Shown: positions 16,273-28,837 of the stretch, piece after piece | Position numbering within the stretch: the first letter of the stretch is position 1 | How the letters are laid out: every line of letters begins with the position of its first letter | Source of the DNA: Methylobacter sp. | Lineage (GTDB): Bacteria > Pseudomonadota > Gammaproteobacteria > Methylococcales > Methylomonadaceae | Assembly: GCA_002928495.1 (NCBI GenBank) | Contig: PERF01000008.1 | Span: 1 to 38,680 of the forward strand | Length of the DNA: 38,680 bases | Reading direction: 5' to 3' | Position numbers and translations under genes: made by a program | Notes under the pieces: generated by a model | Database searches by the model: none | What the model was told of the DNA's origin: nothing | Seen by the model: the letters and a program-made list of their open reading frames with translations, nothing else

Positions 16273-17031
16273 TTATTTGGTAAATTTAGCATATATGTAA
16301 GGCACCATAACCGCCAATTTGCCATTGTCTGCTTGCTTTATATCAAAATAACGCTCAACGCCCTCGTAAGTTTCTTCCAACGGTAAATCTAAGGCAAAAA
16401 CTTTTTGAAAAAACTCGGCAATATCGTTTTTTGAGTCAAAGTTAAACGGCACATCGAAAACTTCTACATCCGTTTTTGCCGCTTGCGCGAAACGGCCGAT
16501 ATTAACCATTCTTGATTTTGACGCAAACAAGCCTTGGTGGCCGGTTACGGTAATATTATCTACGATTTCATCAAAATAACGCTGAATGCTGGAATCATCT
16601 GAAAAATCACCCACGCAGAATACGCCACCTTTTTTCAATTTGCTTAATGCTGATTTGGTAATGCTGATTTGATCTTCCATATGATGCCAGCCGCCCAAAG
16701 ATACGGCCTTATCGCAGGATTCATCTTTTATGGTGTTTAAATCAGTTATGTAATTGATATGTTCAAATGAACCGCATTTTTTACTGTTGATTTCTAGTGT
16801 TTTGGGAGCAATATCTTGTGCATACAACACGCCACCGGTGTTTTGCTTGGCAATTTTTTGCGTTAAAAAACCCGTTCCGGCTGAGATTTCCAAAATCACG
16901 TCACGGTCTTGCACATTAATATTATTGATTAACCACTCGCCGTCATTTCTAGCATCGGGATATTTGGCAATGGCGTACTCATAAGATGCCGCAATTACGT
17001 TAAATCGAGTGTCATCCAAATTTGTTTGCAT
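16273..17031 (-). CDS. Class I SAM-dependent methyltransferase
   Basis: This 252-residue protein has a SAM-binding Rossmann fold. Motif I is VILEISAGTGFLTQKIAKQN, and the acidic end of strand 2 is in LYAQDIAPKTLEI. DKAVSLGGWHHMEDQ follows at the motif IV position, and LKKGGVFCVGDFSDDSS is the post-methyl strand. The acceptor is unknown. I use the ATG of MQTNLDDTRF at 17031, preceded by CTGGAGAGAAATT; the ORF-track start is further upstream. It is the last gene of the minus-strand cluster led by the GST gene, 181 bases after the cupin gene. With the aminotransferase and cupin it suggests tailoring of a small molecule, but this is inference. Confidence 0.8.
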   Translation of the reverse strand: MQTNLDDTRFNVIAASYEYAIAKYPDARNDGEWLINNINVQDRDVILEISAGTGFLTQKIAKQNTGGVLYAQDIAPKTLEINSKKCGSFEHINYITDLNTIKDESCDKAVSLGGWHHMEDQISITKSALSKLKKGGVFCVGDFSDDSSIQRYFDEIVDNITVTGHQGLFASKSRMVNIGRFAQAAKTDVEVFDVPFNFDSKNDIAEFFQKVFALDLPLEETYEGVERYFDIKQADNGKLAVMVPYIYAKFTK

Positions 17032-17211
17032 AATTTCTCTCCAGGTTAGTTTTTTTAAAAAACTCATGGCAAAACCGGCAGAGTTAGCCAAGTTGCCATG
17101 AGTGCATAGCATTAATCAGTTCTTTACAAATACAGCTAACCTTTACCATAGTTAAGCTGTAATATTTTTTATAAGTTATATTGCTTAGCCTTAAACCAAT
17201 TACCCGCACTA

Positions 17212-17631
17212 TCAACCCACTAATCCTTTACGTCCATCCTCCACAAAATAAATATCCGCATCGTTTTGGTCATTGATAATTCCGGGGTGCTGAAAACCAT
17301 AAACAACCAATTCAACGTTACCGGCCTCAAGACCATGCTTAATTCCTGGCGGAACATTAATCACCGAGTTTTCTTTGAGCACATACCGACGCCCATCGAC
17401 AAAGGCAAAGCCTTCACCTCTGATAACCAAAATAATTGAATGGCTTTTTTCATGGATATGCGGCTCTAAAACTTTTCCCGGTTCCAATACCACATATTCA
17501 CAGCCCATGCCCTCAAAACCTGAACCATCTAAGATGCGAAACATCTTGAAGCCTTCAAGAAAAATTTGCGGGCAATTTTCCACTTGACGCACTGCCCAAG
17601 TAGGTAGCGTATTTTTAGAATCCGACAGCAT
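17212..17631 (-). CDS. Cupin domain protein
   Basis: This 139-residue protein has a single cupin barrel. Motif 1 is PHIHEKSHSIILVIRGEG, giving His-x-His and the downstream Glu-free variant, and motif 2 is NVPPGIKHGLEAG with the third metal His. Such small cupins are isomerases, dioxygenases or sugar-binding regulators; the function here is unknown. The ATG of MLSDSKNTLP at 17631 is preceded by TCGGGAGAGC and overlaps the 3' end of the aminotransferase gene by 17 bases, indicating translational coupling. The two proteins probably act on the same compound. Confidence 0.8.
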   Translation of the reverse strand: MLSDSKNTLPTWAVRQVENCPQIFLEGFKMFRILDGSGFEGMGCEYVVLEPGKVLEPHIHEKSHSIILVIRGEGFAFVDGRRYVLKENSVINVPPGIKHGLEAGNVELVVYGFQHPGIINDQNDADIYFVEDGRKGLVG

Positions 17632-18949
17632 AATTTTGCTCTCCCGAGAATCGTCCCAAACGTTTTGCCAATAAATTAATCTTTTGTTCATCAAGACGGC
17701 CAACACACGCCCTTACACCATCGTTTCTTAAACTGCTAAAGACAGTTAGCGGCAGGACGGCGACACCAATGCTGAGTAATCTTTTTAACAGCTCCAAACC
17801 TGATAAACCGGGGTAACCAAAACAAACATAAAAACCGTTTGCATTTTGATTGAACTCATGATCATAAACAGGATAGAAACCATTCTGATCCAACAGGCTT
17901 TTCAAGAACTCGGACCGTCTTGAATAAACTGACAAGGATTGATCCAAATTTGTCATGCCGTTATTAATGGCGGCAAACGCTTCCGCCACACCATATTGGG
18001 CGCTGTGCGGCGCTCCAGCCGTCAAATTGAAAATAAACGAACTACACGCGCGGCGTACAATCCCCGTGCTCATTGCTTGCTCCAAATTTGAACTTTTCCG
18101 GTTGAGTAATGCCGGTGAGCCAATCAGAAAGCCAATCCTTTCACCTGCATAACTGAGCATTTTTGAAGTACTCAATACTAAAAAATATTCATCGCTATAC
18201 TGGGCAATGCTTGGAAAATGTATACTATCGTTATTACTTTCCGCCCCACTCATGCCTAAATAAGTCAAATCTTCTATAGGCAAAACGCCATAACTCCGGC
18301 ACAACTTCGCCAAATTCTCAAGCTCATATGCGTCAAGCACGGACCAAGTCGGATTATTCGGGCTAGCCCAGCAAATAGCCGCCACATCGCCTTGCATAAA
18401 GTTCTCATGAATTTTGCTGATTAACCGCTCGCCCCTTAAGTCATCTAGTTCTAGCGTATCAACCTGCAGACCTAAAAATCGCGCTTGACTCATCATCGGC
18501 GGATATGTAGGCGTTAAAAACAAGATACGATGTTTATTTTCCACTAAATGCGCGCCAATAGCCTGCGCAGTAAAAAGCGCTTGCGTGCCGCCACAGGTCA
18601 CAAATACATCTTCACCTCGGCAGGCAATACCCAACCGATTTTGGATAAACACCGAAACTTCACAACATAGCTTGGGCAAACCGGAGTAGGGTGGATAGTG
18701 ATGCGGAATATCACCCTTTAGAAGTGCGTCCGAATGTTTGGATAGACATATATCCGAAGGCGTAAGGCCTGGCACGCCAAAATCCAAACGCACGTAGGGA
18801 ATGCCTAAAATACGCTCCATTTCATCAATCGCCGACCAAAAACCTTCGATGTTAAAACCGCCATTTGCCGATACAATTGAATCAAATAGTTTTTCTACAT
18901 AATCAATTGATGGCAATTTATTGGTTTGACTTGATAATGCTAACGACAT
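17615..18949 (-). CDS. PLP-dependent class I/II aminotransferase
   Basis: This 444-residue fold-type I aminotransferase keeps the PLP features. VTCGGTQALFTAQAIG binds the phosphate side, WASPNNPTWSVLDAYEL has the conserved Asn-Pro, PIEDLTYLGM holds the Asp that pairs with the pyridine N, and LSTSKMLSYAGERIGFLIG has the Schiff-base Lys and the phosphate-binding Arg. The C-terminal VRACVGR may supply the substrate carboxylate Arg. The sequence does not match a standard biosynthetic aminotransferase I can name; it may be a specialised-metabolism enzyme. SD TTGGGAGATAACA precedes the ATG. It overlaps the cupin gene and follows the two secreted-protein genes. Confidence 0.85.
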   Translation of the reverse strand: MSLALSSQTNKLPSIDYVEKLFDSIVSANGGFNIEGFWSAIDEMERILGIPYVRLDFGVPGLTPSDICLSKHSDALLKGDIPHHYPPYSGLPKLCCEVSVFIQNRLGIACRGEDVFVTCGGTQALFTAQAIGAHLVENKHRILFLTPTYPPMMSQARFLGLQVDTLELDDLRGERLISKIHENFMQGDVAAICWASPNNPTWSVLDAYELENLAKLCRSYGVLPIEDLTYLGMSGAESNNDSIHFPSIAQYSDEYFLVLSTSKMLSYAGERIGFLIGSPALLNRKSSNLEQAMSTGIVRRACSSFIFNLTAGAPHSAQYGVAEAFAAINNGMTNLDQSLSVYSRRSEFLKSLLDQNGFYPVYDHEFNQNANGFYVCFGYPGLSGLELLKRLLSIGVAVLPLTVFSSLRNDGVRACVGRLDEQKINLLAKRLGRFSGEQNYAVGF

Positions 18950-19049: not shown

Positions 19050-19964
19050 TCAATCATCTTGAAAGCCGACCAACGCTTGGCTTTCTCTAACGCTGTCTAG
19101 CTTGTTTCGGGCAATTGATAACGTAGTACCTTTAATCTCAAACTCATACTGTGTCTGATTAACAATGCCGGTGAACAGGTTGCTGAAGGGCAAATCAGGT
19201 ACAGCACCATAAAGCTGCTGATCCGAGTGCAAAACAATATCAATTACTACAAGCTCCGGATTACCGACATGACTTTGAAAAGGGCAAAAGTTAAGTACAC
19301 GTCTGTATTTAGCATTACCGACATGATCGGTTACAAATACGTTCGGCACACCTCCTAACGGTAACGCCGACAAGCCATTACCGCCTAAAACCGCCCAGAC
19401 ACTATACAGCCGGTTAGGTAAAAACTTTTTTAACGTTAGGCTTACTGTCGCGGTGTTGGCGTTTGAGCATTTGAAGACCGCTACACCCTCGGCACGAGCC
19501 CAACGAGCTAAGGTAATGTCCGGCACCGGGTCAGCAATGCTGGGTTGAGTTGGTAAAGATTGTGTAATTGGTGCTAAAGAAACTCGCGTTTGTCCGGCCG
19601 GATCCACATTCACCGGCACTTTCTTGAGTGAAACATTGAGCGTCCCAGCGTCAATATCAGCCTGGCTTTTGCCCACCAGCGCAAGAAAATCAGGGTCAAC
19701 ATAAGTTGCCAACAGGCTACCAACAGGCGTATCCGGCGTTAATTCATCAGGTTGATCACCTTGTGGATTAAAAGCCCCAACATTAGTAAAACCGGCTGTT
19801 CCTAATGCACCGCCAAAATCTGTCAACGGCTGTCCCAAAAAGCGGTTAGTACCTGTCACCACACGTCCATGAATCGTACGTTTGACGGCATCTGCCGATG
19901 AAGAAACGGGCATAACAATACTGGCAATCATAACGGGCATGAGAACTTTAATGAGCTTGTTCAT
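19050..19964 (-). CDS. Secreted protein of unknown function
   Basis: This 304-residue protein has a signal peptide, MNKLIKVLMPVMIASIVMPV, probably cut after SSA. I use the ATG at 19964 because the longer ORF-track frame adds a non-signal leader. The mature protein is Pro/Val-rich. Its C-terminal part has a repeated beta-strand look (TVSLTLKKFLPNRLYSVWAV, VFVTDHVGNAKYRRVLNF, LVVIDIVLHSDQQLYGAV) and only two Cys. This suggests a beta-sandwich resembling secreted proteins with a YTVW-type core, but I cannot name a family. It follows the ASPIC/FG-GAP gene with a 13-bp hairpin between them, so the two exported proteins may act together. Confidence 0.7.
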   Translation of the reverse strand: MNKLIKVLMPVMIASIVMPVSSSADAVKRTIHGRVVTGTNRFLGQPLTDFGGALGTAGFTNVGAFNPQGDQPDELTPDTPVGSLLATYVDPDFLALVGKSQADIDAGTLNVSLKKVPVNVDPAGQTRVSLAPITQSLPTQPSIADPVPDITLARWARAEGVAVFKCSNANTATVSLTLKKFLPNRLYSVWAVLGGNGLSALPLGGVPNVFVTDHVGNAKYRRVLNFCPFQSHVGNPELVVIDIVLHSDQQLYGAVPDLPFSNLFTGIVNQTQYEFEIKGTTLSIARNKLDSVRESQALVGFQDD

Positions 19965-19997: not shown

Positions 19998-20027
19998 TAG
20001 CAAGCTTTAATTATTTAAAGCTTGCTA
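19998..20027 (-). promoter_or_regulatory. 13-bp perfect inverted repeat between two secreted-protein genes
   Basis: TAGCAAGCTTTAA and TTAAAGCTTGCTA pair perfectly around a 4-base TTAT loop. It sits after the ASPIC/FG-GAP stop and 34 bases upstream of the next start. With no T tract it looks more like an mRNA-processing or attenuating hairpin than a full terminator; a DNA-binding dyad is also possible. Confidence 0.55.
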
Positions 20028-20058: not shown

Positions 20059-21831
20059 TTACCGGATCTTTTTCAAACTCGCCTCATAAGCCGATTCGGA
20101 TAACAATTTGTTACGGCCTTCACGCAAAGTCAAAATTCGGTTCATGGCCACATCATCCAGCCATTGCGTGTTACCGTTGGGCCAGCGGACTTCAAGACTG
20201 GCAATTTTTTCCTTGCCAAGACCGAAATGCACAATTCTGCTAGAAGCACTATAAGTGGAAGTTCCACCGGCAATGGTTCTGATCATTTTTTTACCGCTAC
20301 GTGTAGTCAGCGTTAATTTCGCTCCTACTGCGTTTAGGTTGCTTTTAGGTGCATTACCTATTAAGCGCAACTCTACCCAATTTCCGTCAGTGCCTAGATT
20401 TTTAAAAAATTTTGGCGTTCCTTTGCCTGGGATTACAGTCCTGCCGAATGGGAATATTTCTTCGTACTGAGCCACGTTTTGCAAGAAAATATCCATTTGA
20501 CCATCTTTATTAAAATCGGCAATCGCTAAACCGCGCGCATCCAAGTAATTACCGTCATCACCGAAATTGGCGATATTCGAGGTAAAGCTTTCATCGCGAA
20601 AAGTGCCGTTGCCGTTATTAATTTGCAACCGGCTAGGACCAGCGCCTTCCCGCTCTCTTCCGATTACACCTACCGGTGCCAAATTCATTGCATAATATAA
20701 ATCCAGCCAGCCATCGTTGTTAAAATCAGCCATTGCGCAGCCCCAGGAAAACTGCTGATGCACTGAATCAGTCGCTTCTTTACCAACATCAGTAAAGGTG
20801 CCATCTCCGTTGTTACGGAACAAAGTCGGACGCGGGTTATCCCAAGTACTTGGCGGTGGCACCACTAAAGCGGGTAAAGAAGGATCACGGGTAATCCTTA
20901 GATCGCTGATATTAGTACTGAAAATATCTATCAAGCCATCATTGTTGTAATCACCAATAGTGATGCCCATCCATGCACCATATGCATTTAAATCACCCGA
21001 TTGGGCAGTTACTTTAGTAAACTTGCCCTGGCCTTCGTTACGGAAAACTTCAATAGGCCCGCGTTCTGTAGCAACAAATAAATCTATGTCGACATCGTTA
21101 TCGTAATCAAACCACACAATCGCCCAAGTGTTATAACCGGCAACCACATTGGCCTGTTCTGTAACATCGGTAAAAGTTAAATTGCCATTGTTACGGTAAA
21201 GACGACTGGGAGCGACCGGAATAATATCGCGGCCTGCCTCGGGCGGATTAAAGTCAAGATCTACCCAGCGACCCACCATAATGTCCAAATCGCCGTCATT
21301 ATCATAATCGGCCATGGCAATGCTGCTGTTATAACCATCTTCTGAAATGCCGGCCTGTTTGGTAATATCGCGGAAAGTGCCGTCGCCATTATTGATATAG
21401 AGCTTGTCTGGGCCGTCATTAGAGTCAATGCCGTCTCCTATGGTGGAACCATTTGCCACGTATAAATCGTCAAAACCATCGTTATTAAGGTCACCCACCG
21501 CGACACCGGTGCCTTGACCCAGATCAGCTACACCGGCTGCCGCGGCCACATCTGTAAAGGTACCGTTTTTATTATTACGAAATAAGGCATTGGGTTTACC
21601 TTTGCCATTCATAACATATAAATCTAAATGGCTATCGTTGTTGTAATCAATAAAACCGGCTCCGGGCATAAAGGTAAAACCGTCGGTTTGAAATGTGGGC
21701 GACAAGCTTGCCGCTATGTTTTCAAACTTAAGCTGTTTACGGGCAGAACTTTCTTTTGCATCTGCATTATGGGTTAATGCAATCAAGCCAGCTATAGGCA
21801 ATAAAACTATTCGGCTTATGATCAGTTTCAT
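20059..21831 (-). CDS. Secreted FG-GAP/VCBS repeat protein with ASPIC/UnbV domain (CRTAC1-like)
   Basis: This 590-residue protein has a signal peptide (ISRIVLLPIAGLIALTHNADA) and about seven FG-GAP/VCBS blades with calcium-binding DxNxDGxxD loops: FIDYNNDSHLDLYVMNG, VGDLNNDGFDDLYVANG, MADYDNDGDLDIMVGRW, WFDYDNDVDIDLFVATE, IGDYNNDGLIDIFSTN, MADFNNDGWLDLYYAM and IADFNKDGQMDIFLQN. These should form a beta-propeller. The C-terminal ASPIC/UnbV domain is seen in GNAPKSNLNAVGAKLTLTTR, VHFGLGKEKIASLEVRWPNG. Such proteins are extracellular, and their roles are mostly unknown. It is the first gene after the ECF sigma factor in the cluster. Confidence 0.9.
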   Translation of the reverse strand: MKLIISRIVLLPIAGLIALTHNADAKESSARKQLKFENIAASLSPTFQTDGFTFMPGAGFIDYNNDSHLDLYVMNGKGKPNALFRNNKNGTFTDVAAAAGVADLGQGTGVAVGDLNNDGFDDLYVANGSTIGDGIDSNDGPDKLYINNGDGTFRDITKQAGISEDGYNSSIAMADYDNDGDLDIMVGRWVDLDFNPPEAGRDIIPVAPSRLYRNNGNLTFTDVTEQANVVAGYNTWAIVWFDYDNDVDIDLFVATERGPIEVFRNEGQGKFTKVTAQSGDLNAYGAWMGITIGDYNNDGLIDIFSTNISDLRITRDPSLPALVVPPPSTWDNPRPTLFRNNGDGTFTDVGKEATDSVHQQFSWGCAMADFNNDGWLDLYYAMNLAPVGVIGREREGAGPSRLQINNGNGTFRDESFTSNIANFGDDGNYLDARGLAIADFNKDGQMDIFLQNVAQYEEIFPFGRTVIPGKGTPKFFKNLGTDGNWVELRLIGNAPKSNLNAVGAKLTLTTRSGKKMIRTIAGGTSTYSASSRIVHFGLGKEKIASLEVRWPNGNTQWLDDVAMNRILTLREGRNKLLSESAYEASLKKIR

Positions 21832-21946: not shown

Positions 21947-22777
21947 TTAACTGTTTAATATTTTTACCGTGTTATTTTCCAAAAGACTTCTTATACCTTC
22001 AATTAACCGCTCCGGGGCTGCGTATTCTGGATGGTTGCGCATAACCGACGCGGTGTTGTTCAGCAAATCTACTTCTTCAACGTATTTTTTAAGATTTTTG
22101 GGATCGCTAAATACAAGCTGTTGCGGATTCACCCGCCCCACTCGGATAGCTTTTTGGACCTTTTTTTCACAGCGGCAAACGTTCTGGGGATTAACCACAC
22201 CGCAATAAGCTTCGGTAAAACTTTCAATCTCAATTCGGGCGCGCGACAGCCGCTGTCTGAACAAATCGTGTTTAGCACCGGCAATTTCTGCAGCAAGCCG
22301 GCCGGGTAAATCGAAAATCTCACCCAGCACGTAAGCAATTCGGTGCTCACGATCAAGACACGTTAGCATCGCCAGTGTGCAACCGTATTTCACTTCATCG
22401 GCAAGCAAAAAATCGCTCTCCGAAGGCTCGGATAAACCATCCATAAGATCTTTACCAAAGCTGTCAAAACTCAAATCCAGTGCTTCAACGCGCGATTTGC
22501 GCCGATCTAGAATATGGTTGACGGTTAAACGGTAAACCCAAGTTCTAGGTGATGCGTCACCACGAAATGTACTAAGTTTGGTAATCACCTTAATGAGAAC
22601 TTCTTGAGTGATATCTTCCGCGTCGTGGGGACAAGTCACCATTTTTAAAGCAATAGCAAAAACGCCGTCCTTGAGCGCCCTTAGCAATTTATCCAAGGCA
22701 TCCTTGTCACCTTGTTTTACTTCTTCAACGAGACCTAACAGGTTTATTCTGTCTTTTTCCGGATAAATCTTTATCAT
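21947..22777 (-). CDS. ECF-type RNA polymerase sigma factor with Cys-containing C-terminal extension
   Basis: This 276-residue protein has sigma region 2 at about residues 25-95 (ALKMVTCPHDAEDITQEVLIKV, RTWVYRLTVNHILDRRKSR). Region 4 lies at about 130-185 (LAMLTCLDREHRIAYVLGEI, LPGRLAAEIAGAKHDLFRQRLSRAR). The remaining 90 residues are an extension starting YCGVVNPQNVCRCEKK, a C-x7-C-x-C set that could bind a metal or sense redox state. No separate anti-sigma gene is nearby, so the extension may do that job, as in other ECF groups with fused C-terminal domains. SD AGAGGATGCTGCA supports the start. It lies inside the cluster it may control. Confidence 0.88.
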   Translation of the reverse strand: MIKIYPEKDRINLLGLVEEVKQGDKDALDKLLRALKDGVFAIALKMVTCPHDAEDITQEVLIKVITKLSTFRGDASPRTWVYRLTVNHILDRRKSRVEALDLSFDSFGKDLMDGLSEPSESDFLLADEVKYGCTLAMLTCLDREHRIAYVLGEIFDLPGRLAAEIAGAKHDLFRQRLSRARIEIESFTEAYCGVVNPQNVCRCEKKVQKAIRVGRVNPQQLVFSDPKNLKKYVEEVDLLNNTASVMRNHPEYAAPERLIEGIRSLLENNTVKILNS

Positions 22778-22862: not shown

Positions 22863-23819
22863 TCAGGCTGCCGGTAGTACTTTTATCGGAGGCAGAAAGT
22901 AATCCCGGTGCTCGTGAATCCAACTATTAAAAGCCTTAGGATTACGGCCCAATATATTTTTAACATGCGGGGTCAATTCAAATAGGTGGTCGTGCTGCAT
23001 TTCCCATTTAAAATAATTCATAAAATACTCGGGGGTGTCAGCACCCCATTTTTCGGAAAATACCGGTTGAATGGCGTTAAAAAATCGGGTTTCGTCACCG
23101 TCGTAACGAATCTCGACCCCTAAGACTTCGGTAAATAACTGTGCTGCCTCGCTCAGTTTGCACAAATCCTGGCCGGTAACATCGATCAACTTTCCAAAAT
23201 ATCCATTCGGCTCTTTAAGCAGCAACTCGGCAGCAACATGGGCTACATCGGTAGGGTCGATCCAGGCGAGTGTTCTATCGAATGCAATGCGGATAGCGCG
23301 GTCGTTGATGATGGGTTGAATAAACATACGGGTAAAATCATCCATATAGTAACCTGCCACATTAATGAAAGTAACTGGCAAACCTGCTCTTTGATAATTC
23401 TCCTTAGCGACTAAATGTTGCATGGCCGGTCCGTAACGGTATATTTTTAACACTTCGGGAATCATGGAAAAATCAGCCCCAGGTGGTGTGCCTAAAATAC
23501 GGATGATATGCTTGACTGAACCGGTTTGCCGGCACGCTTGCGCCAAATTTTGTACCAGATTATCCTCATTAAAAAAATCAGGAGATATCTGGAACACACC
23601 TTCTATTCCGTCCAAGGCGGCTATGAGTGAATTCAAATCAAAAAAATCCGCCACCACCGGCTCGGCATGCGGGAACATAGCTTTTAGCTGAGGCAAATTT
23701 TCGCTGCTATGCGTCGCAACTTTTAATCTCACTCCTGGAGCATGCTTATACACATAACGAGCTACAGCACTGCCGATGTGGTCTTTAGCACCAAAAACCA
23801 ATATTGACTTTACTTTCAT
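22863..23819 (-). CDS. NmrA-like NAD(P)-binding protein
   Basis: This 318-residue atypical SDR has the N-terminal nucleotide motif ILVFGAKDHIGSAVARYV, then VVADFFDLNSLIAALDGIEG and VFQISPDF. This is the NmrA/QOR2-like arrangement in which the protein reads or reduces using NADP(H) but lacks a clear YxxxK (the nearest is LVAKENYQRAGLPVTFINVA). WIDPTDVAHVAAELL is also typical. The ATG at 23819 follows AAAAAGGAGGATGT, better spaced than the GTG at 23822. It lies 35 bases after the GST gene and before the sigma gene. Genes encoding NAD-dependent epimerases/oxidoreductases are typical partners of ECF41-type sigma factors. Confidence 0.82.
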   Translation of the reverse strand: MKVKSILVFGAKDHIGSAVARYVYKHAPGVRLKVATHSSENLPQLKAMFPHAEPVVADFFDLNSLIAALDGIEGVFQISPDFFNEDNLVQNLAQACRQTGSVKHIIRILGTPPGADFSMIPEVLKIYRYGPAMQHLVAKENYQRAGLPVTFINVAGYYMDDFTRMFIQPIINDRAIRIAFDRTLAWIDPTDVAHVAAELLLKEPNGYFGKLIDVTGQDLCKLSEAAQLFTEVLGVEIRYDGDETRFFNAIQPVFSEKWGADTPEYFMNYFKWEMQHDHLFELTPHVKNILGRNPKAFNSWIHEHRDYFLPPIKVLPAA

Positions 23820-23854: not shown

Positions 23855-24463
23855 TTAAACTTTGGGTAATGCTTTTTGAAAACCCTCGATTTTACCAACG
23901 CGATCAAACCATGCAGTTATATTCGGTTGTTGCGGCGCAGCTTGTGCCAAGCTAAGTTGAAATATATTGGAGGCCACCGAAAGATCGGCAATAGTTGGAG
24001 TGTCTCCGGCAAGAAATTGGCGATTTTTCAAACCATCCGACAAAACTTCGGTAAGCGTGGTTAGTTTTTCCAAACCTCGAGCTATGGCTGCCTGATCCCC
24101 TTTATCACCCATAAAAACCTTATTAAGTACAATATCAACCACAACCTGCGCCAAACGGCATTGATTCCAGTCCAGCCATTGCTCTACCAAAGCACGGATG
24201 TTTAATTGACTGGGGAACCACGACTCCAACTCATGCTTAAGGCACAAATAGCGCAAAATGGCATTGGATTCATAAATTTTCACATCCCCGTCAAGTAAGG
24301 TTGGCACTTGGCAATTGGGATTAATCGCCCGGTATTCAGGTGTTAAATGCTCGCCGGCTTCCAGCGCCAAACTACGTGTTTCATACGGCAATTTGACCTC
24401 TTCCAACAATGCAACGACGCGTCTAACGTGCTGAGAATATGGATGATAATATAAAATGTACAT
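23855..24463 (-). CDS. Glutathione S-transferase family protein
   Basis: This 202-residue protein has an N-terminal thioredoxin-like domain (YYHPYSQHVRRVVALLEEVK, then the cis-Pro NPNCQVPTLLDGDVKIYESN with the Glu-Ser glutathione contact). The all-helical C-terminal domain contains FLAGDTPTIADLSVASNIFQ, the GST N-capping box. The first-helix SQHVRR offers a Ser as candidate catalytic residue. The substrate is unknown. It is the first gene of the ECF-sigma cluster and has the candidate ECF promoter 43 bases upstream of its ATG. Confidence 0.88.
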   Translation of the reverse strand: MYILYYHPYSQHVRRVVALLEEVKLPYETRSLALEAGEHLTPEYRAINPNCQVPTLLDGDVKIYESNAILRYLCLKHELESWFPSQLNIRALVEQWLDWNQCRLAQVVVDIVLNKVFMGDKGDQAAIARGLEKLTTLTEVLSDGLKNRQFLAGDTPTIADLSVASNIFQLSLAQAAPQQPNITAWFDRVGKIEGFQKALPKV

Positions 24464-24505: not shown

Positions 24506-24535
24506 TTAGACGATTTTGGAAATAACTTTGTGACA
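24506..24535 (-). promoter_or_regulatory. Candidate ECF-sigma promoter (TGTCACA-N16-CGTC)
   Basis: On the minus strand the -35 like element TGTCACA (24535-24529) and the -10 like element CGTCTAA (24512-24506) are separated by exactly 16 bases, ending 43 bases upstream of the GST start. This equals the published ECF41-type consensus TGTCACA-N16-CGTC. The sigma factor three genes downstream is the obvious candidate to use it, giving positive autoregulation of the cluster. Its group is not ECF41 by its C-terminal domain, so the link is inferred from the match and position. Confidence 0.65.
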
Positions 24536-27041: not shown

Positions 27042-27638
27042 TTAGTCGCTAGAAACACCTGATCGTTTGTTCCATTCACTACACAGCTTTCTGAACGAGC
27101 GACTACGATCAAACGCCAGCTGCAAGTCTATTAGCGCGGAAAACGCTGGTTGGTCGGTGGTTTCACCATACGAACGGTTGGTCATGCAAGCCTCAATCCA
27201 GCCCTTGGCATCGCGCGGTTGTTCTGGATTGACTGTCTTTGTAGGGTCAAAATTGAAGCCTCGGTTTCCCTGCAGCGATTCGGCGGCAGCGATAAACCAG
27301 GCTTCATATTCTCTGTTTGCCAACACAACAGAAATTCTACGGTGAGGGACGATATTTTGGGCTCGGCGCAATATCTTTTGTCCCAGTTCGGCGGGACAGT
27401 CATCGTCCGCATCGAATAGGATTAATATCCAACCTTCGTTGCCGCATTTATGGGCGGCAAGACTGAGGTGGCGACGAAATTCGTCATCCTTGCTTAGGAA
27501 GCGGTCTCGGCGCACACGAATCGGATAACCTACATCAACATATACTTCCGGGGTTAACCACTCGTTGAGTCGCCGTAATAGAACAGGTAAAGCGATGACT
27601 TCGCCATCACCTTCCACAATGGCAGTCACATTAATCAA
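27042..27638 (-). CDS. DUF4276/TOPRIM-like protein, partner of AAA ATPase
   Basis: This 198-residue protein matches the DUF4276 pattern, related to the TOPRIM nuclease fold. VTAIVEGDGEVIALPVLLRRL carries the first acidic residue, LILFDADDDCPAELGQ the DxDDD cluster, and SVVLANREYEAWFIAAAESL a conserved third block. These positions correspond to the Glu and Asp-x-Asp metal site of OLD-like nucleases. Its start overlaps the upstream ATPase stop by four bases, so the two are translated together. With the ATPase it forms a two-gene module of the OLD/PARIS-like kind seen in phage-defence islands. I infer that role and do not see it directly. Confidence 0.8.
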   Translation of the reverse strand: MINVTAIVEGDGEVIALPVLLRRLNEWLTPEVYVDVGYPIRVRRDRFLSKDDEFRRHLSLAAHKCGNEGWILILFDADDDCPAELGQKILRRAQNIVPHRRISVVLANREYEAWFIAAAESLQGNRGFNFDPTKTVNPEQPRDAKGWIEACMTNRSYGETTDQPAFSALIDLQLAFDRSRSFRKLCSEWNKRSGVSSD

Positions 27639-28837
27639 GGCTGGCTGTCTCCAAATATATCGGTTTGTTTTTGTTCTTGCGCTTCTAGTTGTTTGCGGTT
27701 AGGCGCCAGTTGATTTAGACGCAGCAATTCGCCGGCAGAGAACAGTGATTCTAGAATCGCTTGCCTAGAAGCTTCGTCAATGGTGCCGATCTTGGTTTCG
27801 CCTTTTTCGGAAACCACCGACAATAAAGAATCGGCGCTCAATTTCCGATCGTCGAGCAGATCAGGACTGTGACTGGTGACGATGATTTGAGTTTCTTGCG
27901 AAGCCCGATTCAAGGCTTCGCGCAAAGCTGAACTTGCCGCCGGATGTAACGCCGTCTCCGGCTCTTCGATGCCTATCAGGGTGGGAGCGTAATCGCGGTT
28001 ACCTTGAAACATTGCTGCCAATATTCCTAATGCCCTTAAGGTGCCGTCAGACATGTTTTGCGCCAGAAAACGCCAGGGATGCTTGGCCCCGGCCATTTCC
28101 TGGCGAAATTCGAGGGTTTCCATAGGGCCAATGGGCTTACGCTTTACACCATGAACCATAGGTACGACAGTTTGCAAATATTCCTGGATGATGTCCATGC
28201 GTTCTGGAGATACCCTTTCTAAATGCCCAATGACACTAGCGATGTTTTCACCAACCGACTTTAGTAACTTACCCTCCTGCGGTTTCTGCAGTTCCCGCAT
28301 TAATTTGGGATTTAAATTGTAAAATCCCATAGTTGAGAACAGATCGAAAACCGGGCGAAACCCGGGCAAGCCGGAAGCGGCTACCAAGGCCAAGCGGTCG
28401 GCGGTCACGGTGGGGAAAGTCGTCTCACTACTGTTGCGCAGTTTGCCTTTATCGATTCGGAAAAACTGACCTTTACCGATACCCCCCAACACGCATTCCT
28501 CGCCTTGTACTTCGTAACCTTGGCCGGAAAGCGCTCCAACATTGAATGCGTAATGTCCTTTTTGCCCATTAGTTAATGAGAATTCCAACCGAATGCCGAA
28601 ATGGTTTGGATGACCGCTGGAATATCTACGCACTTCCGACAAGCCGCCGCGTTCGTTTAATGCGTTGTCCAACGAACTGGTTAAGGCATCTCGTACCAAG
28701 TGCAAGGCATCAAGGAAATTGCTTTTACCGGAACCGTTTGCACCGACCAGATAGCTCAGTCGGCCAAGTTTTACATCACAATAACCAATGCTTTTGTAGT
28801 TTCGTAATACAACGCGGGTGATACTGGCATGGGCCAT
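27635..28837 (-). CDS. AAA_21-type ABC/SMC-like ATPase
   Basis: This 400-residue ATPase has Walker A LVGANGSGKSNFLDAL near residue 35, the ABC-type signature region QNMSDGTLRALGILAAMF, Walker B TLIGIEEPETALHPAA and the His switch IIVTSHSPDLLDD. The arrangement matches RecF/SMC-like AAA_21 proteins that act with a TOPRIM or other effector, such as OLD, RloA or AriA. The C-terminal tail is charged and has no nuclease domain, so the DUF4276 protein fused by overlap downstream probably supplies it. It lies at the edge of a decayed region, consistent with a mobile defence island. Confidence 0.85.
   Translation of the reverse strand: MAHASITRVVLRNYKSIGYCDVKLGRLSYLVGANGSGKSNFLDALHLVRDALTSSLDNALNERGGLSEVRRYSSGHPNHFGIRLEFSLTNGQKGHYAFNVGALSGQGYEVQGEECVLGGIGKGQFFRIDKGKLRNSSETTFPTVTADRLALVAASGLPGFRPVFDLFSTMGFYNLNPKLMRELQKPQEGKLLKSVGENIASVIGHLERVSPERMDIIQEYLQTVVPMVHGVKRKPIGPMETLEFRQEMAGAKHPWRFLAQNMSDGTLRALGILAAMFQGNRDYAPTLIGIEEPETALHPAASSALREALNRASQETQIIVTSHSPDLLDDRKLSADSLLSVVSEKGETKIGTIDEASRQAILESLFSAGELLRLNQLAPNRKQLEAQEQKQTDIFGDSQP

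Follow-up and report, generated by a model that had tools for sequence, protein, structure and literature searches.

An ECF41-like promoter in Methylobacter sp. probably serves the autoregulation of an ECF sigma factor from a separate family

The minus-strand element at positions 24506–24535 of the window, as we call the whole 38,680-nt stretch of Methylobacter sp. DNA analyzed here, is in our judgment likely to be an autoregulatory promoter, read by an ECF sigma factor from a family other than ECF41, with one operon as its target and with a cysteine-bearing extension of the sigma factor and/or a co-encoded partner gating its activity. Comparison of related sequences underlies the pairing of sigma factor and promoter, the one-operon regulon, the distinctness from ECF41, the invariance of the cysteines and the identification of the partner genes. 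The core of the locus comprises:

24529–24535, minus strand: predicted −35 element TGTCACA, with the family core GTCACA at 24529–24534 (near-)invariant in 24 related loci
24506–24512, minus strand: predicted −10 element CGTCTAA, 16 nt from TGTCACA, with the family core GTCTAA at 24506–24511
23855–24463, minus strand: GST-family protein, 202 aa, encoded by the gene closest to the promoter, in the slot of the relatives' START-fold or SnoaL_2 genes
22863–23819, minus strand: NmrA-like NAD(P)-binding protein, 318 aa, encoded next, with its ATG 35 bases past the GST stop codon
21947–22777, minus strand: ECF sigma factor, 276 aa, with regions 2 and 4, a C-terminal extension of ~85 aa and invariant C133, C192, C201 and C203

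Promoter element and its conservation among relatives

On the minus strand, TGTCACA (24535–24529) is followed by the 16-nt spacer AAGTTATTTCCAAAAT and by CGTCTAA (24512–24506), with 42 bases between the final A of the latter and the GST ATG at 24463. The original prediction, which had described an ECF41-type promoter before the GST gene, was thus right about the position and letters of the motif, and it quoted the published ECF41 pattern TGTCACA-n16-CGTC correctly (TGTCACA, 16 ± 1 bases, CGTC; PMC3426412), so that this feature of ECF41 membership is present in the window. Its claim of a real promoter stands as well, but the assignment to ECF41 does not, since the sigma factor belongs elsewhere. 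In the assembly (2.67 Mb in 202 contigs, 77% complete), a scan for TGTCACA-N16/17-CGTC revealed a single copy, that of the window; its reversed control occurs twice, and the ECF41 pattern by itself is therefore genome-wide no better than chance. The family pattern GTCACA-N16..18-GTCTAA also matches once in the assembly, at the window promoter, and its control not at all. The significance of the motif lies in its position and its conservation among relatives, not in its number of copies. An Rfam scan of the window for structured RNA gave no match.

Relatives of the sigma factor were drawn from two sources, a named collection of genomes, which gave 30 loci, and 399 genomes of the phylum; a scan of the collection with the single sequence returned nothing, and an alignment query found them. 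The family is present in 7 of the 399 phylum genomes (the window's own counted) and in 5 of 201 genomes of the window's family, a patchy distribution from which horizontal transfer is likely. At 24 of 36 loci (35 plus the window), the sigma operon is preceded by GTCACA-N17-GTCTAA with no more than one mismatch, versus 0.05 expected from dinucleotide shuffling. At these loci, where the sigma factors are 35–47% identical, the motif sits before the partner–sigma operon or before the sigma gene itself at mostly equal spacing. Further copies at the equivalent place carry two mismatches or a 16-base spacer, and a perfect copy, its spacer shortened by one base, stands directly before the Enterococcus relative. 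The SnoaL_2 and sigma genes of Methylocucumis oryzae are not adjacent, yet the motif still precedes the SnoaL_2 gene. No good copy was found near the sigma gene in L011, L020, L033, L038, L044 and the contig-edge locus L017, while the alphaproteobacterial pair L036/L037 retains just the −35 half.

The logo of the 24 loci, with the window left out, reads GTCACA ... GTC[T/C]AA; the loci were picked by likeness to this core, which makes its counts partly circular, but not the shuffle test or the flanking bases. These flanks are also biased, with C two bases before GTCACA in 18 loci and directly after it in 17, and the base preceding GTCACA is G in 11, T in 7, A in 5 and C in 1. Compared with ECF41, conservation is lacking at the initial T of TGTCACA and at the leading C of CGTC, whereas the −10 element continues as a conserved TAA. 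Because the logo differs from ECF41 in this way, the window's exact match to ECF41 reads as one version of a family-specific promoter, GTCACA-N17-GTCTAA. Collectively, these comparisons identify the element as a genuine promoter that is almost certainly autoregulatory. Autoregulation of the cluster by its own sigma factor, as originally proposed, is strongly supported by promoter conservation at 24 of the 36 sigma operons.

Exact GTCACA-N17-GTCYAA was found at 34 sites in the 28 genomes bearing the sigma factor (mean 1.2), most of them at the sigma operon, and the reversed control at 16 sites in the same genomes. We considered and rejected a wider regulon, given that the extra sites amount to about one per genome and are near control numbers; the regulon, as predicted from these counts, is essentially one operon, a picture that resembles ECF41. 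In the Methylovulum genomes G024 and G049, an identical exact GTCACA-N17-GTCTAA stands 22 bases upstream of the recA start (L062, 1501–1529, and L064), which makes recA a possible second target in Methylovulum or else a chance match kept by kinship. The Bosea vaviloviae genome encodes a second, divergent member of this sigma family, directly preceded by the promoter (L053, 206–234), the other paralog being L037.

A sigma factor family separate from ECF41

Pfam recognized only Sigma70_r2 in the window's sigma factor, with no SnoaL domain, and the general ECF model TIGR02937 scored it above cut-off. Regions 2 and 4, and no other sigma regions, were recognized by fold (AlphaFold/Foldseek), the Foldseek matches spanning about 180 columns that correspond to regions 2–4. 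The AlphaFold model has a mean pLDDT of 80.7, with regions 2 and 4 good and the extension poor from about residue 221. C133, at the start of region 4, and C192, C201 and C203, in the C-terminal extension, are invariant in the 29 aligned sequences, and the Leptospira, Runella and Enterococcus relatives share all four. Two family marks, EVK-I/Y-GCT and CG-(5-7)-C-x-C, open region 4 and the C-terminal extension, respectively. As stated in the original prediction, the sigma gene is the third of its run and has no visible anti-sigma neighbour. One relative, in Leptospira interrogans (L101, 3384–4274), is 41% identical and resides on non-mobilizable plasmids; a one-mismatch promoter with a spacer of 16 lies before the small gene that precedes it.

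These comparisons delineate a little-described family, separate from ECF41 and represented in at least six bacterial phyla. A search of openly accessible literature returned no description of the family, of START- or SnoaL-linked sigma pairs, or of GTCACA/GTCTAA; the family may well carry a group number in the 2021 ECF classification.

The promoter could have been taken for an ordinary ECF41 promoter read by an ECF41 member whose extension was lost or altered, since it matches the ECF41 consensus exactly, the regulon comprises a single operon with a partner gene upstream of the sigma gene, as in ECF41, and the NmrA-like partner resembles the enzyme partners of that group. Nonetheless, architecture and phylogeny together rule out the ECF41 membership that had been predicted. 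Pfam and NCBIfam scans revealed no fused SnoaL-like C-terminal domain, the WLPEP motif of the region 2/4 linker is absent from all 29 family rows of the alignment, and the ECF41-type models TIGR02957 and PRK09636 gave 43 and 42 bits against cut-offs of 323 and 271. By contrast, bona fide ECF41 proteins of the same class (L085–L087) carry WLPEP, DGGGK (DGGGV in one) and NPDK/NPEK. In the tree, the 29 relatives including the window split from ECF41 with 98% SH-aLRT, as judged against three ECF41 rows on long branches. The promoters also diverge: the family conserves GTC[T/C]AA and has T before GTCACA in just 7 of 24 loci, whereas the mapped ECF41 promoter of S. meliloti is TGTCACA-N16-CGTCATGG, without TAA (PMC6180224). 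For the linked decarboxylase, oxidoreductase or epimerase gene typical of ECF41, the NmrA-like gene of the window is a possible counterpart, START or SnoaL_2 genes occurring in the relatives instead. We hold ECF41 membership to be hardly credible. A chance match, with the GST gene transcribed from a sigma-70 or other promoter, fares little better and is in our view very improbable: the genome-wide count of the ECF41 pattern (one versus two in the reversed control) would agree with it, but two thirds of the related loci conserve the motif at the equivalent position, and no sigma-70-type site was reported on the minus strand between 23041 and 25100.

A separate ECF41 sigma factor reading the promoter was likewise considered and rejected. 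The genome of the window, which is 77% complete, contains nine region-2 matches; among those read, five are of primary, stationary-phase, heat-shock or RpoE type, one is FecI-like beside a FecR-like gene and one is a short ECF, while the central frame of another match (L079) reads as a cupin-type protein. Neither these matches nor TIGR02957, which had no match at its limit, disclosed an ECF41 sigma factor in the assembly, from which another reader could be missing at this level of completeness.

The two families nevertheless have much in common, namely a nearly identical promoter, the lack of an anti-sigma factor, a partner gene upstream of the sigma gene that bears the promoter, and a one-operon regulon (Wecke et al. 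2012, PMC3426412). They differ in that ECF41 has a fused SnoaL domain and the WLPEP linker, whereas the family of the window has a cysteine-bearing extension and, where SnoaL_2 is present, encodes it separately. Cysteines in a C-terminal extension and the absence of an anti-sigma factor are also shared with ECF238/CorE-like sigma factors (PMC8999054); these, however, have a CXC in the region 2–4 linker, in which (about residues 92–121) the window's sigma factor has no cysteine. They also have a cysteine-rich C-terminal domain; the extension of the window's protein carries three invariant cysteines, C192, C201 and C203, and matched no known domain. ECF sigma factors with TPR or SnoaL C-terminal domains similarly have a regulatory extension (PMC8999054), but neither domain was found in the window's protein.

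Operon, partner genes and proposed gating

Downstream of the sigma gene, the minus strand continues with:

20059–21831, minus strand: FG-GAP/ASPIC secreted protein, 590 aa, 115 bases past the sigma gene, putative operon member
19998–20027, minus strand: AT-rich inverted repeat (13 bp) in the gap that follows ASPIC, without a minus-strand T run
19050–19964, minus strand: secreted protein, 304 aa, no Pfam match
17615–18949, minus strand: class I/II aminotransferase-fold enzyme, 444 aa
17212–17631, minus strand: cupin, 139 aa, its start overlapping the aminotransferase end
17062–17103, minus strand: hairpin resembling an intrinsic terminator, with TTTTTT after it, in the cupin–methyltransferase gap
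16273–17031, minus strand: SAM methyltransferase, 252 aa from the ATG at 17031, behind the terminator

The original prediction had all eight genes under one promoter as a single regulon, conceivably a small-molecule pathway. All lie on one strand with gaps of about 35–115 bases or overlaps (35 bases between GST and NmrA, 85 between NmrA and sigma), and no clear terminator precedes the cupin end, none being recognizable between sigma and ASPIC in particular. Against this arrangement, the hairpin at 17062–17103 is strong (−22.8 kcal/mol, z −5.2 over a 65-nt stretch), and because it stands with its six T before the methyltransferase gene, the latter is probably a separate unit outside the operon. 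In addition, the 13-bp hairpin follows ASPIC, regulons in related genomes comprise one operon, and at the loci compared, no gene from downstream of the window's sigma gene was seen again next to a related sigma gene. We accordingly found no support for the eight-gene regulon and regard it as improbable. A core unit of promoter, GST, NmrA and sigma, possibly with ASPIC, is supported, its limits being drawn from sequence features. The aminotransferase-fold enzyme, whose gene overlaps that of the cupin (17212–18949), may take part in a small-molecule pathway; its highest-scoring NCBIfam model, for a (S)-gamma-hydroxy-arginine cyclodehydratase, is matched far below cut-off. Elsewhere in the window (27042–28837), adjoining AAA ATPase-like and DUF4276/TOPRIM-like genes are, judged by eye, possibly a defence pair.

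In the relatives, the place next to the sigma gene is mostly taken by small proteins. A START-fold gene occurs in 19 loci (17 by clustering and 2 later), mostly adjoining the sigma gene on its upstream side or overlapping it; the fold was assigned by AlphaFold and Foldseek, Pfam giving no match. A free-standing SnoaL_2 protein is encoded in seven loci (Pfam). Two relatives lie on plasmids: in Runella, the sigma gene follows one that matches ydhR monooxygenase marginally, and in Enterococcus the sigma gene precedes a DUF2461 gene. GST and NmrA occupy the partner slot in no other locus examined, and a START or SnoaL_2 partner acting in trans was not found elsewhere in the window's genome. Since its partner slot differs from that of every relative examined, the window locus could be rewired. 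The NmrA protein was discarded as an anchor for relatives, its best relative having no sigma gene beside it.

We infer from this organization that the active sigma factor (21947–22777) would direct RNA polymerase to 24506–24535, resulting in transcription of GST, NmrA, the sigma gene itself and possibly ASPIC, that is, in positive feedback on essentially one operon in which no anti-sigma factor would take part. Its activity would most likely be gated by the C-terminal extension and/or a co-encoded small ligand-binding protein. The invariance of the cysteines suggests that C192, C201 and C203 could, with C133, bind metal or form disulfides connecting region 4 to the extension. On the other hand, the co-encoded START-fold or SnoaL_2 protein of most relatives suggests a ligand-binding partner, which may act jointly with the cysteines and whose place the GST and NmrA proteins would fill in the window. 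Given these two occupants, a reactive, thiol-active or redox-related small molecule may be what is sensed.

How sigma activity is controlled admits another reading, which leaves the pairing of sigma factor and promoter untouched: the START and SnoaL_2 proteins, here GST and NmrA, could be mere detoxifying targets, with the cysteine extension alone as the sensor. Partner identity varies while the cysteines stay constant, and partner enzymes are targets in ECF41; opposed to this, in most of its 19 loci the START-fold gene runs into or directly adjoins the start of the sigma gene, which suggests a stoichiometric START–sigma pair. We give this reading somewhat less than an even chance. More tentative still, and on balance rather doubtful, is the specific proposal that the four-cysteine site senses together with an exchangeable in-trans partner (START, SnoaL_2, monooxygenase-like or GST/NmrA) across at least six phyla, making the family a split counterpart of ECF41 with nearly the same promoter and a distantly related sigma factor.

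The assignment to a non-ECF41 family implies that the ECF41 motif alone cannot serve to name ECF41 regulons. A START fold as a sigma regulator, or a free-standing SnoaL_2 in place of the fused domain of ECF41, would, if true, bear on how sensing proceeds without an anti-sigma factor. Matched to its promoter across phyla by comparison alone, this ECF sigma family offers a possible orthogonal sigma/promoter pair with a directly testable regulon.
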